Positions 1 to 8,858 of a DNA stretch of 11,180 bases are shown piece after piece (the stretch's first letter is position 1; the number at the start of each line of letters is the position of its first letter). The notes beneath the pieces were generated by a model that did no database searches, was not told the origin of the DNA, and worked only from the letters and a program-made list of their open reading frames with translations. The translations under genes were made by a program, and so were the position numbers. This DNA comes from Bryobacterales bacterium (GTDB lineage Bacteria; Acidobacteriota; Terriglobia; Bryobacterales; Bryobacteraceae): the NCBI GenBank assembly GCA_003132905.1, contig PKZC01000267.1:4284-15463 (forward strand), given 5' to 3'.

Positions 1-439
1 ATTGGAGCTCGGTGGTCGCGTCCAATTTCGTTTTACCGCTGTTGTTGAGGAGAACTTCCCCGACATTCGTCGCGCGCCCTTCCGGAGTGATAGCCCACAT
101 GACATAGGTCAGATACTCGGGCCCGAACTGTGTGGCGGGGCCAAGCTTTTCCATGTCCGCGTCGATCTTAATGACGCCTTGTTTGCTCTCCACCTTCGCC
201 TCGCCGCGAGCTTCCGGCATCAACGCAGTCCCCCGGAACCCAATTCGGGTGGATCCGCTGCGATGGTTGTAGTTGATGGCTTTTGTAGTCCTGGCTACAA
301 CGGTAATGCGATAGATCGGCGTCGTCGCGCCGTTTTCAATGGGTTGTTGAGTTGGATTGGGAGCCTGTGGCGCTTGGGCCAAAGCCAGCTGGGCCAGTGC
401 GAGTCCGCACACCGCCAGGAATAAACTTGTAAACTTCAT
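1..439 (-). CDS. Secreted N-terminus of an OmpA-family-like envelope protein (partial)
   Basis: The ORF begins at ATG 439-437 and runs off the left edge, so only 146 residues are visible. Residues 1-21 form a signal peptide: Lys at position 2, a hydrophobic core, and an Ala-Leu-Ala-Gln end. A low-complexity Pro/Gln stretch follows, then a soluble beta-rich domain containing YRITVVARTTKAINY and, further on, YLTYVMWAITPEGRATNVGE. These phrases match, from memory, the N-terminal domain of acidobacterial proteins annotated as OmpA family, in which a long Ala/Glu-rich coiled region and an OmpA domain come later. Those parts lie outside the window, so the assignment is by resemblance only. A GAGGG Shine-Dalgarno sequence precedes the start. 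A sigma-54-like promoter (481-496) and one copy of the 28-bp element (571-598) lie upstream in the same orientation, suggesting stress-responsive control of an exported or periplasmic protein. Confidence 0.65.
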   Translation of the reverse strand, partial: MKFTSLFLAVCGLALAQLALAQAPQAPNPTQQPIENGATTPIYRITVVARTTKAINYNHRSGSTRIGFRGTALMPEARGEAKVESKQGVIKIDADMEKLGPATQFGPEYLTYVMWAITPEGRATNVGEVLLNNSGKTKLDATTELQ

Positions 440-480: not shown

Positions 481-496
481 TGCACGAGCGCGGCCA
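481..496 (-). promoter_or_regulatory. Candidate sigma-54 (-24/-12) promoter for the gene starting at 439
   Basis: Read on the minus strand the site is TGGCCGCGCTCGTGCA. GG (495-494) and GC (483-482) are separated by exactly 10 bp, as in the TGGCAC-N5-TTGCA consensus. TGGC of the -24 box and TGCA of the -12 box match. Transcription would start near 470, about 30 nt before the ATG. The 28-bp element at 571-598 would be centred near -115. On its own the match is moderate; the upstream element makes it more credible. Confidence 0.42.
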
Positions 497-570: not shown

Positions 571-598
571 TAACCATATACGGTCAGGTGACCAAGTG
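571..598 (-). repeat. 28-bp intergenic element, copy A (candidate activator-binding site)
   Basis: On the minus strand the site starts CACTTGGTCA, has GAC at positions 14-16, T at 19 and GGTTA at 24-28. It matches copy C (7944-7971) at 21 of 28 positions and copy B (3964-3991) at 18 of 28. The half-sites form a perfect inverted repeat here (GGTCA-CC-TGACC in this orientation), typical of a dimeric regulator's operator. It lies about 130 bp before the start codon at 439, in the same orientation as that gene, and just beyond the terminator of the opposite neighbour. Confidence 0.7.
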
Positions 599-606
599 TG
601 GTCAGC

Positions 607-642
607 AAAAAATAAGAGCCGTGGTGTGTATCACCGCGGCTC
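607..642 (-). terminator. Rho-independent terminator of the SYLF/csbD cluster
   Basis: Two 11-base arms (616-626 and 632-642) pair around a 5-nt loop. On the minus transcript there is one C/A mismatch. The hairpin is followed on the minus strand by a T-rich tract, TTATTTTTT (615-607). It sits 20 bp after the SYLF stop codon at 663. The T tract is on the minus side only, so it terminates leftward transcription. Confidence 0.85.
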
Positions 643-662
643 AATATGTCTTCGAAAGACTT

Positions 663-1271
663 CTAACGAGTGGAGGTTGTTTCCACGTGCTCGTGTCTCG
701 AGTATTTGTTCAGCAAAGCCAGTAATTTGGCCGCCGACCGGGGCGCGCGCGTATGTTGCGTCACGATCTCGCGATTCTCCAGTTTTTGGCCGCCATAAAG
801 CTTGGCGTTATCGTCCAAGTCCTGCCGCAGCGTGGCGCCTTCCAGTGCCACTCCGGCAAACAAGCCTTGCGACCTGGACCAGGACAGAATTTCTGCGTGC
901 AGCTGGGCATCGGTCTGCGCCGTCGCGGTGCGTGTGAACTTACTCAGATCCGCCGATTTGGAAACCGAAGCTGCCGCCTTCGATGCGGACCGTACCAGGC
1001 GCCGACCATCCGGTGCCGTTCTTACTCCGGCAAGAAAGGTACCCTTTGCCGTACTTGGCGCCAACCACAAAAGCAGCCGTCTTGAGCGCCGGAACAATTA
1101 CGATGCAGTGAGCGTTCTCAAGCAATTCTGCTGGGATGCCTTTATCCGGCGCCGACATCACCTCGGTAAACACGTCAGCGGCCTCATTTAGCCGCTTAGC
1201 CGACTCGGAAGCTGCGACAGCAACGGCGCAAGGGCCAAAGTCTGCTCTCGATCTCGGTTCCAACGGTGCAT
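663..1271 (-). pseudogene. Decayed SYLF-domain (YSC84/DUF500) lipid-binding protein gene
   Basis: Two pieces of one SYLF protein are in different frames. The N-terminal piece (about 1240 down to the TAA at 942-940) carries SAKRLNEAADVF, DKGIPAELLENAHCIVIVP, KYGKGYLSCR and IEGGSFGFQIGGSE. The C-terminal piece (about 955 to the TAG at 665-663) carries SKFT, RTATAQTDAQLHAEILSWS, GLFAGVALEGATLRQDLDDN and LLALLNKYS. In intact relatives about 35 residues link GGSE to RTATAQ, including a TDVVLLVMN-like segment and SKFTLG. Here only SKFT survives, with a frame change at a TGAGTAAG junction. The signal peptide also appears out of frame: ATG 1271-1269 opens MHRWNRDREQTLALAPLLSQ, while the mature start ASESAKRL is in another frame. 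SYLF proteins bind phosphoinositides or lipids and are usually secreted in bacteria. With two or three lesions this copy should not make a functional protein. Loss of about 30 internal codons is hard to explain as a sequencing error. Confidence 0.8.
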
Positions 1272-1294
1272 GTTGCCAGCCAACTACTCGCGCT

Positions 1295-1450
1295 TTAGCG
1301 GAACCCTCCCAGCAGGTATGCAATCAGGAGAATTATGACGATGGTTCCCAATCCTATTCCAGCTCCACCTCCCACTCCCCAACGGCTGTGGCCGTAGTAT
1401 CCTCCGCCGCCGCCAAATAGCAGCAACAAAACAATGATCAGTATCAACAT
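1295..1450 (-). CDS. 51-residue Gly-rich two-helix membrane protein (DUF3309-like)
   Basis: The frame starts at ATG 1450-1448 and ends at TAA 1297-1295. The protein has a hydrophobic N-terminal helix (residues 2-12, Ile/Leu/Val), a run of five glycines (13-17), a short polar turn with YYGHSRWG, a Gly-rich segment and a second helix (about 36-47, TIVIILLIAYLL), ending GGFR. Architecture and length resemble DUF3309 and similar tiny inner-membrane proteins common beside csbD and SYLF genes. The family assignment is by architecture only, and no function is known to me. A GAAGG ribosome-binding site lies about 7 nt before the ATG. It is 63 bp downstream of csbD on the same strand and likely shares its transcript, with the SYLF remnant following. 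Confidence 0.75.
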   Translation of the reverse strand: MLILIIVLLLLFGGGGGYYGHSRWGVGGGAGIGLGTIVIILLIAYLLGGFR

Positions 1451-1513
1451 GGTGGTGCCTTCTTTCTTGTGAAATATCGCGCCTATGGAACTCGCGGGGG
1501 CTGCACCGGACGG

Positions 1514-1750
1514 CTATAGCCGGACAGCCGGGTTCTCATCGGCCTTGGATTGTTCCAAGGCGCGCGACCACTCGTCCGCCTGTTTCTCGGCTTCCGCCTT
1601 GGCGATTCCGTATCGCTCCTGAATTCGCCCGACTAACTGGTCCTTTTTGCCGGCTATGGTTTGCCAGTCGTCATCGGTGAGCTTTCCCCAGCGCTCTCGC
1701 GCCGACCCGGTAACTTGCTTCCACTTGCCTTCGATTTGATCCCAGTTCAT
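1514..1750 (-). CDS. csbD: CsbD family stress-response protein
   Basis: The 78-residue hydrophilic protein opens MNWDQIEGKWKQVTGSARERWGKLTDDD, the hallmark of the CsbD/YjbJ family (W..IEGKWKQ..G..KE.WGKLTDDD). It ends in a charged helical tail with many Glu, Lys and Ala. CsbD proteins are small, abundant, mostly alpha-helical cytosolic proteins induced by general stress (sigma-B in Bacillus; YjbJ in E. coli); their biochemical role is unknown. The start is fixed by GAGGAG 7 nt upstream. A strong sigma-54-type promoter (1778-1793) is so close that the transcript would start just before this ribosome-binding site. The gene directly upstream is the sigma-54 activator, and the gene downstream is a small membrane protein. 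Confidence 0.93.
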   Translation of the reverse strand: MNWDQIEGKWKQVTGSARERWGKLTDDDWQTIAGKKDQLVGRIQERYGIAKAEAEKQADEWSRALEQSKADENPAVRL

Positions 1751-1777
1751 GCTCGTAACTCCTCTGCGGGTGCTAAG

Positions 1778-1793
1778 AGCATGTGACGCGCCA
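1778..1793 (-). promoter_or_regulatory. Sigma-54 (-24/-12) promoter of csbD
   Basis: On the minus strand the site reads TGGCGCGTCACATGCT. It agrees with TGGCACG-N4-TTGCW at every position except two (G for A in the -24 box, A for the first T of the -12 box), with the obligatory 10 bp between GG and GC. The predicted start, near 1767, leaves a leader of about 17 nt that contains only the GAGGAG Shine-Dalgarno sequence. It lies 51 bp after the stop codon of the EBP gene. No copy of the 28-bp element was found upstream. Confidence 0.6.
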
Positions 1794-1831
1794 TTTGGAC
1801 TCCAAGGGATCTGAGGAGCCCGCCATGCTCA

Positions 1832-1843
1832 CCCCACATGGGG
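1832..1843. repeat. CCCCACATGGGG inverted repeat between the EBP gene and csbD
   Basis: The arms CCCCA and TGGGG flank CA. The site lies just past the EBP stop (TAG 1847-1845) and about 40 bp before the csbD -24 box. It could be a short hairpin (CCCC-4 nt-GGGG, no T tract) or a protein-binding site; the sequence does not decide. Confidence 0.35.
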
Positions 1844-1844
1844 A

Positions 1845-3818
1845 CTAAAGATCCTTGCGCGAGATCTCCAGCTTGCGCATCATGGCGTTCAACGTGGTGC
1901 GTGGCAATCCCAGACGCGTGGCCGCGGCGCTGACCACTCCATTGGATTCCCGCAGAACCCGAATGATGTGATCCCGCTCCACTTCGGCGAGCGACGCGCC
2001 CGTAGGCACTTCGACCGCATCGGCGCGTATCTCCGCCAAAGGCGCGCGCAGGGTGGACCCGGGCGACAGAATGACCGACCGTTCGATGAAATTCTCCAGC
2101 TCCCGCACATTCCCCGGCCAGGGCCACGCAACCAGCGCCTGCATGGTCTCTGCGGGAATTTTATCGATCTGCTTATTCATCTTGCCGGCGTAGGTTTGGG
2201 TGAAGTGCCGGACCAGCACGGGAATGTCTTCGCGATGTTCGCGCAAGGGGGGTATGGTGATGGGAAAAACCTTCAACCGGTAATAAAGATCGCTGCGGAA
2301 AAGCTTGTCTCCCATCATCTGGGTGAGGTTGCGATTGGTGGCAGCCAACAGCCGGACATCGATAGGAATGGTGCGCGTGCCGCCCAATCTTTCGAATTCC
2401 TTCTCCTGTAAAGCTCGCAGCAATTTCGGCTGAAGCTCCAAGGGGATGTCTCCCACTTCATCCAAGAACAAAGTTCCCTGATGCGCTCGCTCGAAGCGCC
2501 CGATCTTTTGCGTCAAGGCGCCGGTGAACGCCCCTCTTTCATAACCGAACAGCTCGCTTTCCAAAAGCCCGGTGGGGATGGCAGCGCAGTTCAGCGTGAT
2601 AAAAGGACGGTTCCGGCGGCCACTCATCTTGTGGATGGCGCGTGCCACCAGTTCCTTGCCGGTGCCGGTTTCGCCCAACACCAACACTGTGGCGTCGGTA
2701 GGCGCTACGATTTCCACCTGCCCCATCACGCGCTTTAACGCCGCACTGGTGCCGACAATCTCCTCGTATTCCTGCGAAGCGCCGGGTTCGTTGGTAATCT
2801 TTTCGGCTCGCTCGCGCTCGGTCAGGTTCTGCACGAACGTAATCCATCGAAAGGGAAACGGGGGTAACGCGGCGCTTGCCACCAGAACTCGCACGCGCGT
2901 CTCATCCTTGCGAACGTATTCCATTTCAAATGGCGTGCACGCTCCATGCAGCAGGCTCTCTTCGTGAGCGTGTTCCTGCAACGGAAGGTACTCCGGCGCA
3001 ACGATATCGGCCCAGTGCAGACCGGCGATTACGTCCTCCCGGCTGTATCCCAGCATGTTGAGAAATACATCGTTCGCCTCGAGAATGCGGTCAAATTCGC
3101 CGGATACGATGCCTGCGACGGTCGATTCAGCCGGAATCAAGGGCGAGCCGGCCCGCTTGCTGAGGATTGATTCTTCTCTGCGATGGCGCGTAGTAAAATC
3201 CCGCACCACGCTCGCAAAGCCCTGCAGCTCCAAATTCTGGTCTCTCAGAGCCGATGTCAGCGTATTCGCCCAGAAGCGTGCCCCGTCCTTTCTCTTATGC
3301 CATCCCTCAATTCCAAGATGACCCTCGGCAGCGGTCCTTTTCAATTCGCCCTGAAAATCCACGCGCGGCTCCTCGTTATCCAGATGGAGGCAGCTTGCCG
3401 GTTGACCGATGATTTCTTCACTTGTGTAGCCGTACGTGCGCTGTGCGCCCGCGTTCCAGGCGATTATTTTGCCGTCCGGATCGAGACACAAAAATGCATA
3501 ATCGGCGGCCTCTGCGTCGCTGGCTTTCTCGCTCAGGCCCCAAACGTGACGCCCAGGTAGCACTTCGTTCAGTGCGGGGACGGAAAGCTTGCCCACCAAG
3601 GCGAGATCGTCGATCGAACGACCGATCATCTTGTCGCTCGAAATCCCGAGCAGCTTGCAGGCGCCCGAACTTGCGTCCACACAGCAACGGTCGTCGTCTG
3701 CGATCACAATGGGTTCGGATTGATGAGAGAGGACGGCCCGGAGCAACAGCTCCAGTTCTTTCAGGCCATCGTTCACCAGCCAGCTACTGGTTTCTTGCTC
3801 CGAGGCTGCGGAGTGCAT
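1845..3818 (-). CDS. PAS-domain sigma-54-dependent transcriptional activator (EBP)
   Basis: The 657-residue protein has an N-terminal signal-input half with a weak PAS-like segment (about 25-95), a clear PAS/PAC unit (about 105-212, including DGKIIAWNAGAQRTYGY and an RDFT end) and a second (about 228-340). The AAA+ core (about 352-580) has Walker A GETGTGKE (382-389), the sigma-54 contact loop GAFTGA (429-434), Walker B TLFLDE (449-454) and WPGNVRELENFIERSV. A Fis-type helix-turn-helix ends the protein (about 612-652). It lacks a receiver domain, so control is probably by a ligand or redox cofactor on PAS, or by a partner. ATP hydrolysis would remodel sigma-54 holoenzyme at -24/-12 promoters. 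An AAGGAG sequence 5 nt before the ATG fixes the start. Flanking sigma-54-like promoters (1778-1793, 4056-4071) and the 28-bp elements are plausible targets. Confidence 0.95.
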   Translation of the reverse strand: MHSAASEQETSSWLVNDGLKELELLLRAVLSHQSEPIVIADDDRCCVDASSGACKLLGISSDKMIGRSIDDLALVGKLSVPALNEVLPGRHVWGLSEKASDAEAADYAFLCLDPDGKIIAWNAGAQRTYGYTSEEIIGQPASCLHLDNEEPRVDFQGELKRTAAEGHLGIEGWHKRKDGARFWANTLTSALRDQNLELQGFASVVRDFTTRHRREESILSKRAGSPLIPAESTVAGIVSGEFDRILEANDVFLNMLGYSREDVIAGLHWADIVAPEYLPLQEHAHEESLLHGACTPFEMEYVRKDETRVRVLVASAALPPFPFRWITFVQNLTERERAEKITNEPGASQEYEEIVGTSAALKRVMGQVEIVAPTDATVLVLGETGTGKELVARAIHKMSGRRNRPFITLNCAAIPTGLLESELFGYERGAFTGALTQKIGRFERAHQGTLFLDEVGDIPLELQPKLLRALQEKEFERLGGTRTIPIDVRLLAATNRNLTQMMGDKLFRSDLYYRLKVFPITIPPLREHREDIPVLVRHFTQTYAGKMNKQIDKIPAETMQALVAWPWPGNVRELENFIERSVILSPGSTLRAPLAEIRADAVEVPTGASLAEVERDHIIRVLRESNGVVSAAATRLGLPRTTLNAMMRKLEISRKDL

Positions 3819-3854
3819 CGAGTCTCCTTCGCCCCCGTCGATCCAGGAAACCGG

Positions 3855-3889
3855 GTCTCTAAAAGACTAGTGTTTGAAAGTCTCTTAAA
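3855..3889. repeat. Repeat cluster in the leader of the EBP gene
   Basis: GTCTCTAAAA (3855-3864) recurs as GTCTCTTAAA (3880-3889), 9 of 10 identical, 25 bp apart. Overlapping them, AAAAGACT (3861-3868) and AGTCTCTT (3879-3886) form an inverted repeat with 7 of 8 pairs around a 10-bp spacer. It sits 37-71 bp before the EBP start codon, a position suited to an operator or leader hairpin. No sigma-70 promoter could be assigned with confidence. Confidence 0.4.
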
Positions 3890-3963
3890 CAGCGGAGAGC
3901 CGAGATAGGCGGTAGGCTTCATTCTACCATCGATCCACGCAATGACAGCAAAATGATTGATCG

Positions 3964-3991
3964 CATTTGGTCATGCGACGCTCCGTGGTCA
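3964..3991 (+). repeat. 28-bp intergenic element, copy B (candidate activator-binding site)
   Basis: The site starts CATTTGGTCA, has GAC at positions 14-16, T at 19 and GGTCA at 24-28. It matches copy C at 22 of 28 positions. It lies between the divergent EBP gene and the small membrane protein gene, centred about 104 bp before the predicted start of the sigma-54-like promoter at 4056-4071. It is also 146 bp from the EBP start codon, so autoregulation is possible. Confidence 0.75.
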
Positions 3992-4055
3992 AGGGCATTG
4001 TTCACCCGTCTCAGCAAGTTGCGTGGTCCTTAGCGGAAAACATCCTAGGGCACGT

Positions 4056-4071
4056 TGGGCAGTGAATTGCC
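4056..4071 (+). promoter_or_regulatory. Candidate sigma-54 (-24/-12) promoter of the gene at 4098
   Basis: The site reads TGGGCAGTGAATTGCC, with GG (4057-4058) and GC (4069-4070) 10 bp apart and a full TTGC in the -12 box. The rest of the -24 box is poor. The distance from GC to the start codon (28 nt) is almost the same as at the csbD promoter (29 nt), and both leaders hold little beyond GAGGAG. Element B lies 65 bp upstream. Confidence 0.52.
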
Positions 4072-4097
4072 TGTTCTTTACCTTGAGGAGCATCCGA

Positions 4098-4289
4098 ATG
4101 CCGTTGATAAACTTAGTTTTTGCGTTGATTTTGGTGGGTGTAGCGCTGTGGCTGGTGAATCGCTTTATCCCGATGGCGTCCAGCATCAAGACCATTCTCA
4201 ATGTCGTGGTGGTGGTTGCGGTTGGAGTTTTCGTATTGAAGTCCGCGGGACTTTGGGGAGACGTGAGCAGTTTTCGAATCGGGCGCTAA
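4098..4289 (+). CDS. Small two-helix inner-membrane protein of 63 residues
   Basis: The protein has two hydrophobic helices, residues 3-20 (LINLVFALILVGVALWLV) and about 33-49, joined by NRFIPMASSIKT, and a short polar tail ending SSFRIGR. This pattern, with LVNRFIPM after the first helix, resembles the small Thivi_2564-type membrane proteins of unknown function; I recall the resemblance and cannot confirm it. GAGGAG at 4085-4090 selects ATG 4098 over an in-frame ATG at 3957, which would add 47 residues that do not look like protein. It has its own candidate sigma-54 promoter plus element B. The Crp/Fnr gene follows after 21 bp and may be co-transcribed. Confidence 0.78.
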   Translation: MPLINLVFALILVGVALWLVNRFIPMASSIKTILNVVVVVAVGVFVLKSAGLWGDVSSFRIGR

Positions 4290-4310
4290 CGGTTTCCGTC
4301 CGGTTTCCAT

Positions 4311-4973
4311 ATGAAGGCGAACGACAAAAAGTTTGATCTTGAAGTTTTTCTAGCCGAGTCCGGCAAAGGCAGGACGCTGGCCGATTACGCCAAGAATCAG
4401 CAGGTCTTCCTGCAAGGGGCTCCGGCCGATGCCATCTTCTACATCCAGAAGGGCAAGATCAAGCTCACGGTCGTCTCCCAACAAGGCAAAGAAGCCGTGG
4501 TTGCCATTTTGGGTGCCGGTGACTTCTTTGGCGAGGGATGCCTGGCCGGCCAGTCTTTGCGTATGGCCAGCGCCACCACCATGCTGGAGTGTTCGATCCT
4601 GCGGATAGAAAAGGCGGGCGCCATCCGCCTGCTTCACGAGCAACCGGCCTTTTCCGAACTCCTGCTCCACCACATGCTGTCCCGCAACATTCGGATTGAG
4701 GAGGATCTGGTGGATCAGCTCTTTAATTCCAGTGAAAAGCGCCTGGCTCGAGTGCTCCTGCTGTTGGCCAACTTCGGGAAGGAAGGCAAGCCGTCGCTGG
4801 TGATACCCAAAATCAGCCAGGAGACGCTAGCCGAGATTGTCGGCACCACTCGCTCGCGAGTCAGCTTTTTCATGAACCGGTTCCGAAAGCTAGGATTCAT
4901 CCAGTACAGCGGCCTATACGATAGCGGTCTGGAAGTGCATAGCTCGCTGCTCAACATCATCCTGCACGACTAA
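4311..4973 (+). CDS. Crp/Fnr family transcriptional regulator
   Basis: The 220-residue protein has a cupin-like cyclic-nucleotide-binding domain (about 22-125), including FLQGAPADAIFYIQKGKIKL and GDFFGEGCLAGQ. A long dimerisation helix follows (about 115-140), then a winged helix-turn-helix (about 165-200) with ISQETLAEIVGTTRSRVSFFMNRFRKLGFI, the Crp-type recognition helix. The usual cAMP-phosphate Arg-Ser pair after the GEL-like turn is Arg-Met (84-85) here, and only two cysteines (77, 94) are present, so neither cAMP sensing nor an Fnr iron-sulfur cluster is evident; the effector is unknown. No Shine-Dalgarno sequence is visible before the ATG, which suggests coupling to, or readthrough from, the membrane-protein gene 21 bp upstream. 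Its last 17 bp overlap the 3' end of the opposite kinase gene. Confidence 0.92.
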   Translation: MKANDKKFDLEVFLAESGKGRTLADYAKNQQVFLQGAPADAIFYIQKGKIKLTVVSQQGKEAVVAILGAGDFFGEGCLAGQSLRMASATTMLECSILRIEKAGAIRLLHEQPAFSELLLHHMLSRNIRIEEDLVDQLFNSSEKRLARVLLLLANFGKEGKPSLVIPKISQETLAEIVGTTRSRVSFFMNRFRKLGFIQYSGLYDSGLEVHSSLLNIILHD

Positions 4974-6609
4974 CGGCCGATGCCGGAACGGAGCTATTGG
5001 CGGGCAGAGTGAAATAAAACGTCGCACCCTCTCCCTGTGCCGCTTCTGCCCAGATACGGCCGCCCAGCCGCTCGACAATACGCTTGCACGTGGCTAGGCC
5101 GATGCCGCTGCCCGGCGTATCGGGGCCATGCAATCGTTTGAACGGCAGGAAAATCTGTTCCGCATATTGGGGGTCGAAGCCTTGACCGTTATCGCCGATG
5201 AACACAGTCCATTCCCCCTTCTCCTTCTTGGCGCCAATCTGCAGACAGGGCGGCTGGTCGGAACGGAATTTGATGGCGTTACTGATCAGATTCTGAAACA
5301 CCAGCGTCAGTTGGTAGCGATCCGTCCTTAGGGTGGGCAAAAGCCCGAAGTTTACCTGGGCGCCGGTCTCCTCAATGTCTTTTTGAAGGTTGCTTAACGC
5401 CATTTGCAGCGGCTCTCGCAACGATACTGCGGTTCTCTTTCCCGCTCCCCCTACTTGCGCGTACGCCAGCATGTCGCTCATCAAGGCTTGCAGCCGTTGA
5501 AGATTGGCTGTAGCCAGCGCCAATATTTGACTTTCGTCGTCGCGCAGCTTTGCTTCCGTTTTCTGCTGCAGCAATTGTAGAAGCATCATGGCCGAATTCA
5601 GAGGGGCGCGAAGATCATGCGCGGCTACGTACGCAAAACGCTGCGCATCTTCGTTGGAACGTAACAGCTCTTCCTCGATTTGCTTTCTCGCCGTGACGTC
5701 TTCCAGGGCCAGCAGGATAAGGGCCGTCGGATTTCCTTCGCGCCGCAGTCTGCGAGCGCTCAACGACATCGTCAGCCGCCCCAGCGCCGGAAAATCGTGT
5801 CTTACCTCAAAATTCTCGACTGCCTTGTCTTTGGACAACACGTCATCGAGCAGTACACGCAACTCCGGAATATCCCATTGCCCGTCTCCAATCTCGTAGA
5901 GCAGGCGTCCTTCCGTAAGAGCGGGTGTAACTCGAAAGGTCTCATAGAACGATCGGCTTGCCATTTTGATTCGGAACGTCTCGTCCAGCACCAGCAAAGG
6001 TTCTCGAATGGTAGCGACAATCCCCTTCAAAGCAATCAATCGGGACAGAGTCTGATATGCGGCTGCCGCGAATTCCCCCAAGGTGGTCAACACCCTGGCA
6101 TCTTCACGATCGAACTGCCGGCTCTCGTCATGGGAGATAACCCAGAGGGTGCCCACTGCTTCCCCGCCGACGTGAAAAGGGACGAGCAAGGCCTCCGCGA
6201 TGCTTGGCTTGACGTCGGCAAAATATCTGAAGTGACGGTCCAGATGCGACATCAGTTGTATCTGGTTCGTATCCAGTACGGTGCCGCACGGGCTGAAATC
6301 GCGTGGGGTTGTGCCCCATAGATGCGGCGCATACTCGCCCGCAACTCCGTGCCAGCGAAAGATCTTGCGGCCGTTTTCGTCCTCCAGCAAACTAATCCCA
6401 GCTGAATGCGCATGGCACAGGGTGAGCGCTGCTTCTACCAGTTGCTGGAGAGTACGCTCCGGCGAATCTGCCATAGTCCGAGCCAAGCTCACCAGAGCGC
6501 TAATGACCGCCGCAAAATCTGGCTGCCGTGGCTGTCGGCGATTCAATTCATGGGTGTGGATCACTGATTCCAAAGGGACAGAAACGTCAGACACCGCTGG
6601 AGAACCCAT
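4957..6609 (-). CDS. Soluble hybrid-sensor histidine kinase (GAF-PAS-HisKA-HATPase)
   Basis: Starting at ATG 6609-6607, behind a strong AAGGAGG, the protein has 550 residues. A longer reading from 6702 has no such site. Domains in order: GAF (about 48-190, with SAGISLLEDENG and LLVPFHVGGEAVGTLWVISHD), PAS (about 195-310), HisKA (about 315-385) with phospho-acceptor His331 in AAHDLRAPL, and HATPase (about 428-537) with N box QNLISNAIKF (439-448), G1 DNGQGFD (473-479) and G2 GSGIGL (500-505). No transmembrane helix is evident, so it should be cytosolic and sense an internal cue through GAF or PAS. No receiver domain is fused. The divergent single-domain response regulator at 6843 is the natural partner. 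The 3' end overlaps the crp-like gene, with no terminator visible between them. Confidence 0.94.
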   Translation of the reverse strand: MGSPAVSDVSVPLESVIHTHELNRRQPRQPDFAAVISALVSLARTMADSPERTLQQLVEAALTLCHAHSAGISLLEDENGRKIFRWHGVAGEYAPHLWGTTPRDFSPCGTVLDTNQIQLMSHLDRHFRYFADVKPSIAEALLVPFHVGGEAVGTLWVISHDESRQFDREDARVLTTLGEFAAAAYQTLSRLIALKGIVATIREPLLVLDETFRIKMASRSFYETFRVTPALTEGRLLYEIGDGQWDIPELRVLLDDVLSKDKAVENFEVRHDFPALGRLTMSLSARRLRREGNPTALILLALEDVTARKQIEEELLRSNEDAQRFAYVAAHDLRAPLNSAMMLLQLLQQKTEAKLRDDESQILALATANLQRLQALMSDMLAYAQVGGAGKRTAVSLREPLQMALSNLQKDIEETGAQVNFGLLPTLRTDRYQLTLVFQNLISNAIKFRSDQPPCLQIGAKKEKGEWTVFIGDNGQGFDPQYAEQIFLPFKRLHGPDTPGSGIGLATCKRIVERLGGRIWAEAAQGEGATFYFTLPANSSVPASAVSRAG

Positions 6610-6692
6610 GAAATGACCTCCTTGAAGAGAATGTTCGCCGGCCGATAAACAAAGAACCTCGACGCTCAACGTAACACGTATGCCCAGCGACA

Positions 6693-6765
6693 GTCTGTTC
6701 AAAAGCGCTCACCTCGGCAATCCGGTCTGCCATCGATTTCTTCAGTTGAGCAATTGTGAACAGAC
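6693..6765. promoter_or_regulatory. Perfect 9-bp inverted repeat in the kinase/response-regulator intergenic region
   Basis: GTCTGTTCA (6693-6701) and its exact reverse complement TGAACAGAC (6757-6765) are 55 bp apart, with 64 bp between equivalent arm positions, about six helical turns. The arms lie 83 bp and 77 bp from the kinase and response-regulator start codons. The near-symmetric placement suggests two half-sites for one regulator controlling both genes. No good promoter boxes could be assigned in the 233-bp region (6610-6842). Confidence 0.5.
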
Positions 6766-6842
6766 GGAACTAGGGTAAATCCCCGATACTTCATTAACTC
6801 CCCGTTTGAAGTTACTCAAGCGTCACCCCAGGAGTCGCAGCC

Positions 6843-7226
6843 ATGACTGACGAGAGGCAGCGCCGAACCATTTTGGTAGTGGATGACAACCTCGACATTC
6901 GTGGGTTTGCGAAGAAGTTCTTGGAGATCGCCGGATACGCCGTTATCACCGCCGCCGACGGCGAAGAGGGAATCCGTTTCTACCAGGAGCATCAATCGAG
7001 CATTGTGTTGCTGCTTACCGACGTGAGGATGCCCAATATCAATGGTCTGGAGCTGGCCCATCGCGTCCTCAGCATGGATTCCAATCTGCCGGTTCTGCTT
7101 ATGTCCGGAGACGCCGGGTGCGATTGGCCGGGCCTGGAATGCGTGCCGAAGCCTTTTCGGCCCGCCGATTTGATCGCAACGGTGAGCCGCGCGCTGCATG
7201 CGAAGGCGCAGCCGGTCTCGGCTTAG
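6843..7226 (+). CDS. Single-domain (CheY-like) response regulator
   Basis: The 127-residue protein is one receiver domain with no output domain. Acidic pair Asp14-Asp15 is in ILVVDDN, phospho-acceptor Asp60 in LLLTDVRMPNINGLEL, switch Ser88 in LLMSGD and conserved Lys103 in PKPFRPADL. AGGAG, 8 nt before the ATG, sets the start. It probably takes phosphate from the divergent kinase (4957-6609) and acts by protein contact. The PilZ protein encoded 16 bp downstream on the same strand suggests an output linked to c-di-GMP or motility. The pairing is inferred from position. Confidence 0.93.
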   Translation: MTDERQRRTILVVDDNLDIRGFAKKFLEIAGYAVITAADGEEGIRFYQEHQSSIVLLLTDVRMPNINGLELAHRVLSMDSNLPVLLMSGDAGCDWPGLECVPKPFRPADLIATVSRALHAKAQPVSA

Positions 7227-7242
7227 CTGGTTGCCAATTTCG

Positions 7243-7680
7243 ATGGATTCATTCGCCAAAGTTCTCTCCTTCCCGGAAGTACATTTCAGCAAGACAGTTT
7301 CGAGCGGCCCCATTCTGGACGAGCGCCGGTTAAGGTTCCGTTATCCACTCGATCTGAGAGTTCGCTTCCAATCCTCTGTGGCCGGGGCCCCGTTTTCAGG
7401 CGCCGGGTTGGCTGTCAATGTGAGTAGTGGAGGAGTTTTCGTGGCCTCCCATCACCCCGTCGTAATAGGAGCGCTGGTGGAGATGAGTATTGAATGGCCT
7501 TCCAAGCTGGATGGAACGATTCCTCTTCAACTGGTTGCGGTTGGTCGAGTGCTGCGTCACGGGGTAGCGCACTTTGCAGCCTCGTTTGACCGCCACGAAT
7601 TCCGCACTCTCAGAAGTCCAAGCCGCACGCCAGATGGGGTGACCACCTTGTTGAACGGCCGCCCACGCTATCTGAAGTGA
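7243..7680 (+). CDS. PilZ-domain protein, probable c-di-GMP receptor
   Basis: Read from ATG 7243 the protein has 145 residues. The two c-di-GMP-binding signatures of PilZ are present: RxxxR (Arg29-Arg33 in RRLRFRY) and NxSxxG (Asn59-Gly64, NVSSGG), followed by beta strands GVFVASH, LVEMSIEWP, LVAVGRVLR and HFAASFD. The first 25 residues and the last 25 lie outside the domain and have no recognisable motif. No clear Shine-Dalgarno sequence precedes 7243. An in-frame ATG at 7198 would overlap the response-regulator gene and add 15 Arg-rich residues, so the start is uncertain. It likely forms an operon with that gene. PilZ proteins change partner binding on sensing c-di-GMP; the partner is unknown. 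Confidence 0.86.
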   Translation: MDSFAKVLSFPEVHFSKTVSSGPILDERRLRFRYPLDLRVRFQSSVAGAPFSGAGLAVNVSSGGVFVASHHPVVIGALVEMSIEWPSKLDGTIPLQLVAVGRVLRHGVAHFAASFDRHEFRTLRSPSRTPDGVTTLLNGRPRYLK

Positions 7681-7719
7681 TTGGCGGATCGCCTAACGAA
7701 CTTCAATGATGTACCGGCT

Positions 7720-7848
7720 TCACTGTATGGAACTCACGATATTCCTGGTGCTGCTCCGTCTGTCGTGATCCTGGGCAGATACTGTTACGGGAACAAGCAG
7801 GGCCGCACCCAATAATAGCCCGCTCAGTATTCGGAACTGCCTCATCAT
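7720..7848 (-). CDS. Tiny secreted ORF, likely remnant of a longer His/Asp-rich protein
   Basis: The frame encodes 42 residues from ATG 7848-7846 (or the adjacent ATG 7845-7843). A convincing signal peptide (MRQFRILSGLLLGAALLV, then PVTVSA) is followed by only 17 residues starting QDHDRRSS. A GGGGTGAG purine run abuts the start. After DHD another frame continues RQTEQHQEYREF, which resembles, from memory, the conserved end of small acidobacterial secreted proteins with DHD...YRRY..QH..YREF. This suggests an internal deletion and frameshift in a formerly longer gene. It converges with the PilZ gene (39 bp between stops). It may still be expressed as a small secreted peptide, so the pseudogene reading is tentative. 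Confidence 0.45.
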   Translation of the reverse strand: MMRQFRILSGLLLGAALLVPVTVSAQDHDRRSSTRNIVSSIQ

Positions 7849-7943
7849 CTCACCCCAGCTTGCGCTAGGCACGTTAACCCCGTCGGGCTCTGGCGATGGA
7901 AGTATTATGTCCGAGGGCCCGCTCGGCCGCAAACCTTCGACCT

Positions 7944-7971
7944 CATTTGGTCATCTGACACTATGCGGTCA
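7944..7971 (+). repeat. 28-bp intergenic element, copy C (candidate activator-binding site)
   Basis: The site starts CATTTGGTCA, has GAC at 14-16, T at 19 and GGTCA at 24-28. It shares an 11-bp run (CATTTGGTCAT) with copy B and TGGTCA-N-CTGAC plus TAT with copy A. It lies about 146 bp before the LPxTA protein start, in the same orientation, centred about 91 bp before the start predicted from the sigma-54-like site at 8023-8038. Confidence 0.72.
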
Positions 7972-8022: not shown

Positions 8023-8038
8023 TGGCCGAAATGCAGCT
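8023..8038 (+). promoter_or_regulatory. Candidate sigma-54 (-24/-12) promoter of the gene at 8118
   Basis: The site reads TGGCCGAAATGCAGCT, with GG (8024-8025) and GC (8036-8037) 10 bp apart. TGGC and GCT match, but the -12 box lacks TT. The start would be near 8049, giving a leader of about 70 nt. This is the weakest of the four candidates and rests mainly on element C lying 52 bp upstream. Confidence 0.3.
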
Positions 8039-8117: not shown

Positions 8118-8858
8118 ATGAATCTGTTAAAAGCAGTACCGACCGTGCTTTGTGCGGCGGTCATCGCTATAGCGTTCTCTCCCAGCGTGAAAGCCGACGA
8201 CTGGAACCGCAAGACGGTGGTCACATTTAGCCAGCCCGTGGAGACCCCCGGTATCCATATGCAGGGATGGGCCGTGCTGCCTCCCGGCACCTATGTTTTC
8301 AAAGTGCTGGACTCGAAGTCGGACCGCCATATCGTCCAAATCTTCAACCAGGACGAAACGATGATCTACGCCACCATCCTGGCCGTCCCGAACTATCGGT
8401 TGAAGGCAACCAGCAAAACCGTGCTGACGTTTCGAGAGACGCCGCCCGGCCAGCCGGATGTGCTGCGGGCATGGTTCTATCCCGGTAAGAACTTTGGAGA
8501 CGAGTTCGTGTATCCAAAGGCCAAGGCGCTGGAGCTAGCCAAGGTGACCCACTTTCCGGTTCTTTACACCCCGGTTGAGATTACGCCCGAGGTCACGGCT
8601 CCCATCACATCCCCGGACGAACCGCTGGTTGTGGCACTGAAGCAGGCTCCGGTTCTGGCAGTGAGGCCTACGGGAGAAGATCTGCAGATTACCGAAGTGG
8701 TGACCGCGCCGCCCGCCGAAGTGCTGGTAGCGCAGAATGAGGCGCCAGTAACCGCTGAGTTGCCGAAAACGGCCAGCCCGATGCCGCTAATCGGGTTGTT
8801 TGGACTGCTCGCGTTAGGCGCAGCCTTCAGTCTCAGATTGGTCCGCACGCGCGCATAG
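8118..8858 (+). CDS. Secreted envelope protein with C-terminal LPxTA sorting-like signal
   Basis: The 246-residue protein has a signal peptide (about 1-26, core PTVLCAAVIAIAF, end SVKA-DD). A beta-rich domain follows (about 27-150) with TVVTFSQPVE, MQGWAVLPPGTYVFKVLD and FRETPPGQPDVLRAWFYPG, then a Pro/Val/Glu-rich linker (about 150-212). The tail has LPKTAS (215-220), a hydrophobic helix (about 222-238) and a basic end RLVRTRA. This tripartite tail is the layout of sortase substrates (LPxTG-like), with Ala in place of Gly, and similar tails recur on acidobacterial proteins. No sortase gene is in the window. ATG 8118 is preferred over the in-frame ATG 7977 because the signal peptide begins there; the ribosome-binding site is weak. 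The function of the N-terminal domain is unknown to me. Confidence 0.8.
   Translation: MNLLKAVPTVLCAAVIAIAFSPSVKADDWNRKTVVTFSQPVETPGIHMQGWAVLPPGTYVFKVLDSKSDRHIVQIFNQDETMIYATILAVPNYRLKATSKTVLTFRETPPGQPDVLRAWFYPGKNFGDEFVYPKAKALELAKVTHFPVLYTPVEITPEVTAPITSPDEPLVVALKQAPVLAVRPTGEDLQITEVVTAPPAEVLVAQNEAPVTAELPKTASPMPLIGLFGLLALGAAFSLRLVRTRA

Follow-up and report, generated by a model that had tools for sequence, protein, structure and literature searches.

Transcription by the sigma-54 RNA polymerase demands ATP-driven activation. In NtrC-type systems, exemplified by the upstream activating sequence (UAS) of glnA, two dimer sites with TGCACC half-sites lie about three helical turns apart, and two other activators, FhlA and NorR, have GAF domains. 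In addition, the RpoS and SigB general stress regulons include CsbD-like, YflT-like, and BON families. Here, we describe a palindromic element of 34 bp that is present in three copies in a stretch of 11,180 nucleotides from a Bryobacterales bacterium (Acidobacteriota; contig PKZC01000267.1, positions 4,284 to 15,463; hereafter, the window), which also encodes an enhancer-binding protein (EBP) (Table 1). On the basis of the comparative analysis of sequences, we consider it very probable that the element is a tandem UAS of sigma-54 promoters, bound by this EBP and driving a regulon of stress and envelope genes.

The element itself, its conservation, its intergenic position, the enrichment of promoter matches behind it, and its linkage to and co-occurrence with the EBP gene are read directly from the genomes. 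In the mechanism that we infer, each of the 16-bp palindromes (TGACC-N6-GGTCA), which lie side by side, would be occupied by one EBP dimer, the PAS domains of the protein would detect a signal, and the EBP would assemble its AAA+ ring and, through DNA looping, open the sigma-54 form of RNA polymerase poised at a -24/-12 promoter, in most cases 40-90 bp farther downstream, thereby activating rather than repressing transcription. In Bryobacterales, this would switch on a regulon of scattered stress and cell-surface genes. Acidobacteriota are among the commonest soil bacteria and, in our judgement, the control of their transcription is little mapped (our literature searches found nothing on it); in this case, regulator, operator, promoters, and target list can be read from the sequence across dozens of genomes.

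Table 1. Features of the window (positions on the 11,180-nucleotide stretch).
Feature	Position	Strand	Remarks
Copy A	571..604	none	TAACC-N6-GGTCA-N2-TGACC-N6-GGTCA on +; 19/20 half-site bases; matrix score 40.2
Copy B	3958..3991	none	17/20 half-site bases; matrix score 29.3; between the EBP gene and the gene for the 63-aa membrane protein
Copy C	7938..7971	none	18/20 half-site bases; matrix score 33.2
Predicted sigma-54-type -24/-12 promoter A	481..496	-	TGGCCGCGCTCGTGCA; 74 bp past copy A
Predicted sigma-54-type -24/-12 promoter B	4056..4071	+	TGGGCAGTGAATTGCC; 64 bp past copy B
Weak -24/-12-like site C	8023..8038	+	TGGCCGAAATGCAGCT; 51 bp past copy C; -24 half good, -12 half poor
EBP (proposed activator)	1845..3818	-	three PAS-box stretches (TIGR00229), AAA+ with GAFTGA, Fis-type helix-turn-helix (HTH)
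Target A	2..439	-	runs off the window; longer relative L109:6950-8677 with C-terminal OmpA domain
Target B, 63-aa Thivi_2564-family membrane protein	4098..4289	+	behind copy B
Crp/Fnr-family regulator	4311..4973	+	starts 22 bp past the end of target B
Target C, LPxTA-tailed protein	8118..8858	+	no Pfam or NCBIfam match

Structure, position, and distribution of the element

The element consists of two 16-bp palindromes, TGACC-N6-GGTCA-N2-TGACC-N6-GGTCA, and is self reverse-complementary as a whole. The original prediction had described a 28-bp repeat with a third half-site, present in three copies that all pointed the same way toward the next gene. The three copies are indeed where it had placed them and are identical, by direct reading, at 17 of the 28 positions; the repeat is absent from 200 out of 200 dinucleotide shuffles of the window. 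As for its extent, the repeat is real, but the full element is longer: the three-half-site structure was superseded by one of four half-sites once the flanks were read, the fourth (TGACC in copy A, TGATC in copy B, and CGACC in copy C, read toward the gene) lying in the six bases promoter-distal of the 28-bp repeat. The constant orientation could not be maintained, because a near-perfect palindrome has no orientation and the term is meaningless for it. What the three copies do have in common is their place upstream of a start codon, at a distance of 106-146 bp. When the window was scanned with a matrix trained on 162 element sites, all of them outside the window, the next-best score after the three copies was -2.5, and the best among 20 Markov-shuffled windows was 7.1.

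In 64 oriented sites, the mean conservation per half-site is 4.4-4.6 of 5 and about equal for the four half-sites. In the sites of the 143 loci described below, both N6 spacers are variable but lean to RYATRY, and the central N2 is free; this pattern favors two 16-bp dimer sites. The two units are separated by a gap of 2 in 154 out of 170 pairs, a figure that is partly circular, as the loci were selected by gap-2 patterns. The inner pair GGTCA-N2-TGACC was also considered as the dimer site; all 73 of its exact cases fall within elements (a count affected by the same circularity) and its N2 is unconserved, so that the 16-bp unit is preferred, although not proven. Outside the elements, the same loci contain 34 lone 16-mers with at most one mismatch, 19 of them intergenic, compared with 22 and 6, respectively, for the reversed control, and part of these lone units may be real.

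The position of the element was analyzed in 143 loci freed of redundancy (773.5 kb in total, of which our own gene caller marks 75% as coding), selected by the motif and not by its position. Intergenic sites account for 165 of the 174 with a score of at least 17 and for 107 of the 108 with a score of at least 18; the six in-gene matches of the first batch scored 17 without exception, and the genomes in question had one or two matches each. The expectation that the repeat lies outside genes, rather than being as common within them, was therefore borne out in the related genomes, and so was that of its conservation upstream of orthologous genes, since the same gene families recur behind it.

A scan of species-genome contigs with the exact 28-bp pattern retrieved eight loci, belonging to five Bryobacterales metagenome-assembled genomes (MAGs), two Sporomusa genomes, and one Pseudomonadales MAG; a further exact match was found in one viral contig. 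In two of the five Bryobacterales loci (L002 and L004), the LPxTA protein is followed by malic enzyme, as in the window, which speaks for the placement of the window in this order. The Sporomusa matches (L005 and L006), which fall within the open reading frame of a 162-aa P-loop-like protein, a conserved gene, are taken as chance. The 34-bp pattern was then searched, with at most three mismatches, in 120 Bryobacterales genomes, that is, those of the order of G004, the source genome of L004: it gave 209 matches in 49 genomes, against 15 in 13 for the reversed pattern. In an even sample of the phylum (297 genomes, at most two mismatches), eight genomes had a match and only G004 and G011 had more than one; the six others had one each and the reversed control gave three, so that we regard single matches as background. 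The EBP orthologue is present in 3 of these 297 genomes (G004, G011, and G404), and the system seems to be centered on a single order.

Predicted downstream promoters and the linked candidate activator

The stretches that separate an element from the start codon facing it, at a distance of 50-300 bp (n = 154), are enriched in sigma-54-type promoter matches. Indeed, a -24/-12 match scoring at least 17 occurs in 57 of them, versus 8 for the opposite strand and 9.0 for shuffled sequences; at a score of at least 15.5, the figures are 114, 38, and 33.7. The 93 matches scoring at least 16 are rich in TGGC around -24 and in TGCA around -12, letters that are shaped by the scoring itself. A palindromic site mostly 40-90 bp ahead of the -24 box, with the -24/-12 promoter downstream of it, is the layout of a sigma-54 enhancer. 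The -24 boxes lie mostly 39-45, 50-58, 61-68, and 74-78 bp past the element. When one position per gene family is taken, they are in register with a best period of 11.4-11.7 bp (p 0.0005 with 45 families, 0.003 with 35, and 0.073 with 26, as the threshold rises), and no periodicity is seen in the 20 positions of the reverse-strand control (p 0.77); this is suggestive of a helical phasing of element and -24 box and represents a lead.

The protein encoded next to copy B has the features of its class (Sigma54_activat, PF00158, 237.2 bits; HTH_8, 40.4 bits), and the motifs GETGTGKE and GAFTGA are invariant in 13 aligned orthologues, which also have the HTH and the PAS part in common. A motif search of the 143 loci revealed 23 sigma-54 activator genes or fragments, all assignable by their ends to the family of the window EBP, and no EBP gene of another family. 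In a search of the 120 genomes with the profile of the aligned genes, orthologues were defined as scoring at least 575 bits, one or more of the matches in each genome extending into the PAS part, plus a fragment in G112 adjoining its site; paralogues reach at most 530 bits, over AAA+ and HTH only, and the line was drawn after this gap was seen. So defined, the orthologue is present in 38 of the 120 genomes, 37 of which have a site match and which together hold 190 of the 209 matches, whereas 12 of the 82 genomes without it have a match (19 matches; Fisher p 2.4e-19). In the 24 genomes that have the EBP gene on the same contig as a listed site, the two are at most 1 kb apart in 17 cases and 8.1 kb apart in the farthest one; seven genomes without a site position or without a site (G031, G039, G052, G064, G077, G096, and G113) do not enter this comparison. 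The EBP, which had been named among the candidate regulators, is thus the one best supported by linkage and co-occurrence.

Several observations weigh against this interpretation. The scoring of EBP orthologues took only the best candidates of each genome, at most nine, and in seven genomes (G116, G089, G029, G091, G069, G076, and G101) the listed sites are off the EBP contig. G067 has six good sites and no EBP orthologue, and no similar HTH was found in the 17 EBP matches, of its 18, that were fetched (the best being identical at 21 of 43 positions); this assembly may be incomplete, which is unproven. Conversely, G039 (at most three mismatches) and G404 (at most two) have the EBP and no site, and G096 and G101 have the EBP and one match each, that of G101 inside a gene; these two matches may be background. 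The recognition helix reads RTTLRA or RPTLDT in G039 and RTTLNA in most others, a change in keeping with the loss of the site, but G404, also without a site, has RTTLNA and does not follow suit. Moreover, for 46 of the 165 intergenic sites our gene caller places no start codon facing the site within the range of 50-300 bp, and the promoter ahead of target C is weak; within the target C family, 3 of the 15 other promoters have their best match 51-52 bp past the element. Finally, linkage itself is no proof that the EBP binds the element.

Other candidate regulators

A different EBP, or several paralogues, might bind the element, the linked EBP being merely a target or a neighbor. There are 6-60 first-look EBP candidates per genome, G067 has sites without the orthologue, and several genomes harbor a second copy of the family, which in one of them (G068:C80) adjoins a site. 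We nevertheless hold this possibility to be improbable, given that the window-type EBP is strongly linked to and co-occurring with the sites, that the motif search of the loci disclosed no second family, and that the EBP-facing stretches are devoid of a good -24/-12 match. Indeed, none of the six stretches identified (window, L067, L078, L087, L130, and L140) has a match above 15.5, and for this reason we do not claim that the EBP activates its own gene. The second copies, diverged and with a changed HTH, were observed in G068, G027, G108, G085, G094, and G089 (L235-L240), and that of G068 is the one seen to adjoin a site.

The Crp/Fnr-family protein, the other regulator put forward in the original prediction, was initially preferred by us too as the one for which the element would serve as operator, in that CRP sites have a 5-N6-5 geometry, matching the 16-bp unit, and its gene lies directly behind target B. 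Sites are also more frequent in genomes having this Crp (14 of 17, versus 35 of the 103 without it; Fisher p 2.8e-4). The idea was dropped upon the co-occurrence counts, and we now find it very unlikely: at E <= 1e-40, the protein occurs in 17 of the 120 genomes and in 12 of the 38 with the EBP, so that 26 of the latter lack it, including the site-rich G004, G108, G068, G047, and G116. The promoters coming after the sites are, besides, of the sigma-54 type, and in the window and in G094 crp is more simply explained as a target. The gene is probably in one operon with target B, and its position suggests that the protein is probably a target of the element rather than its regulator; it may in turn act within the regulon as a regulator of the second tier. 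A relative of crp in G094 (C86:38741) likewise lies behind a site (C86:38341), within 400 bp of it.

That the copies represent a repeat of mobile or structural nature, or a chance similarity, without any regulatory role is hardly credible, even though short repeated palindromes of the REP (repetitive extragenic palindromic) type exist, since it is the 20 bases of the half-sites that are conserved and the spacers that vary, promoters and the same gene families recur downstream, shuffles contain no copy, and such repeats should be as common within genes as between them, a prediction that fails.

Predicted target genes, a possible stress response, and relation to known systems

The genes facing an element (154) fall into 71 families, 52 of which are singletons, part of them doubtful gene calls; the profile scans took in no more than one member per family. 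The LPxTA protein (target C) is the most frequent target (16 of 154), followed by SYLF/Ysc84 (11), a mixed PAS-box/kinase/EBP group (11), the Thivi_2564 membrane protein of target B (9), a YflT-like family (7; 25.8 bits, just below the cut-off of 26.2), a BON family (7), the family of target A (6; OmpA domain in L109), and a CsbD-like family (5; assigned by eye). CsbD, YflT, and BON proteins belong to stress regulons elsewhere. The idea that the copies face envelope-type genes stands insofar as a shared element does precede such genes, but the targets are stress genes as much as envelope genes.

As regards single targets, the end of target C comprises ELPKTAS and, after it, a hydrophobic segment and basic residues, which we read as a sortase- or exosortase-like (LPxTA) tail. 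Another family of five genes lies behind the element (in L088, L167, L044, L066, and L114); its only member scanned, that of L114, is ice-binding-like (PF11999), which hints at cold or freeze stress. In the window, a CsbD gene (1514-1750) matching PF05532 has no element ahead of it. The same is true for a SYLF/Ysc84-like gene (663-1323, minus strand), 11 relatives of which in the fetched loci do have one; it is split over two reading frames, unlike relatives such as L078:8611-9330, and may be broken or contain a sequencing error.

Sigma factors were searched in 15 of the 18 EBP genomes having at least five site matches. rpoN is present in all 15, above the cut-off in 14 and in two pieces in G019. 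The RpoS and SigBFG models, which are tuned to other phyla, reached their cut-off in none of the 15, all of which have weaker sigma-70-family matches; in the control genomes, each model was above the cut-off in 1 of 14. This result lends weak support to a stress response based on sigma-54. It might even be speculated that in Bryobacterales one PAS-type EBP together with sigma-54 replaces RpoS/SigB in the general stress response, by means of an enhancer that strictly requires two dimers on abutting sites, 18 bp from one another, and of promoters in helical register, a generalization that we advance tentatively and find doubtful in its full form. If the proposed control by the EBP is right, families belonging to the sigma-S/sigma-B stress regulons of model bacteria fall under sigma-54 here. 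The motif is sharp enough for the regulon to be predicted across the genomes of this group, and a single purified protein would suffice for testing it.

Among the papers listed in the literature searches (open access only), no description of the element or of the regulon was found; systems of this kind are known as such, and the operator, activator family, and regulon of the present one seem to be undescribed. Judging from its title, one paper deals with the control of the bacterial exterior by sigma-54 (PMC3162934), which fits part of the regulon; no word starting with or containing "acidobacter" or "solibacter" occurs in its main text. The arrangement resembles the NtrC-type tandem enhancers (glnA UAS) in having two dimer sites upstream of a -24/-12 promoter, each a palindrome with half-sites about 11 bp apart. 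It differs from them in the half-site (TGACC rather than TGCACC), in the dimer sites, which abut here at 18 bp from center to center instead of lying about three turns apart, and in the activator, which bears PAS boxes and gave no match to a receiver domain. The AAA+/HTH part of the EBP is best matched by the FhlA model (426.6 bits), NorR being fifth (335.1 bits), but both scores are well under the respective cut-offs (830 and 476 bits), so that the protein is not assigned as an equivalog of either one; PAS boxes stand in place of the GAF domains, and the targets differ. With the RpoS/SigB general stress regulons, the system has in common the CsbD-like, YflT-like, and BON target families, which here, however, lie behind predicted sigma-54 promoters. 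Lastly, GTCA/TGAC half-sites of a sigma-54 activator recur in the FleQ/FlrA-type sites, as in the one predicted for DVU2894, yGTCA-N6-TGACr (PMC4641369); there, the half-sites are in the reverse order and form one repeat, whereas here TGACC-N6-GGTCA is present twice, with N2 between the two units.

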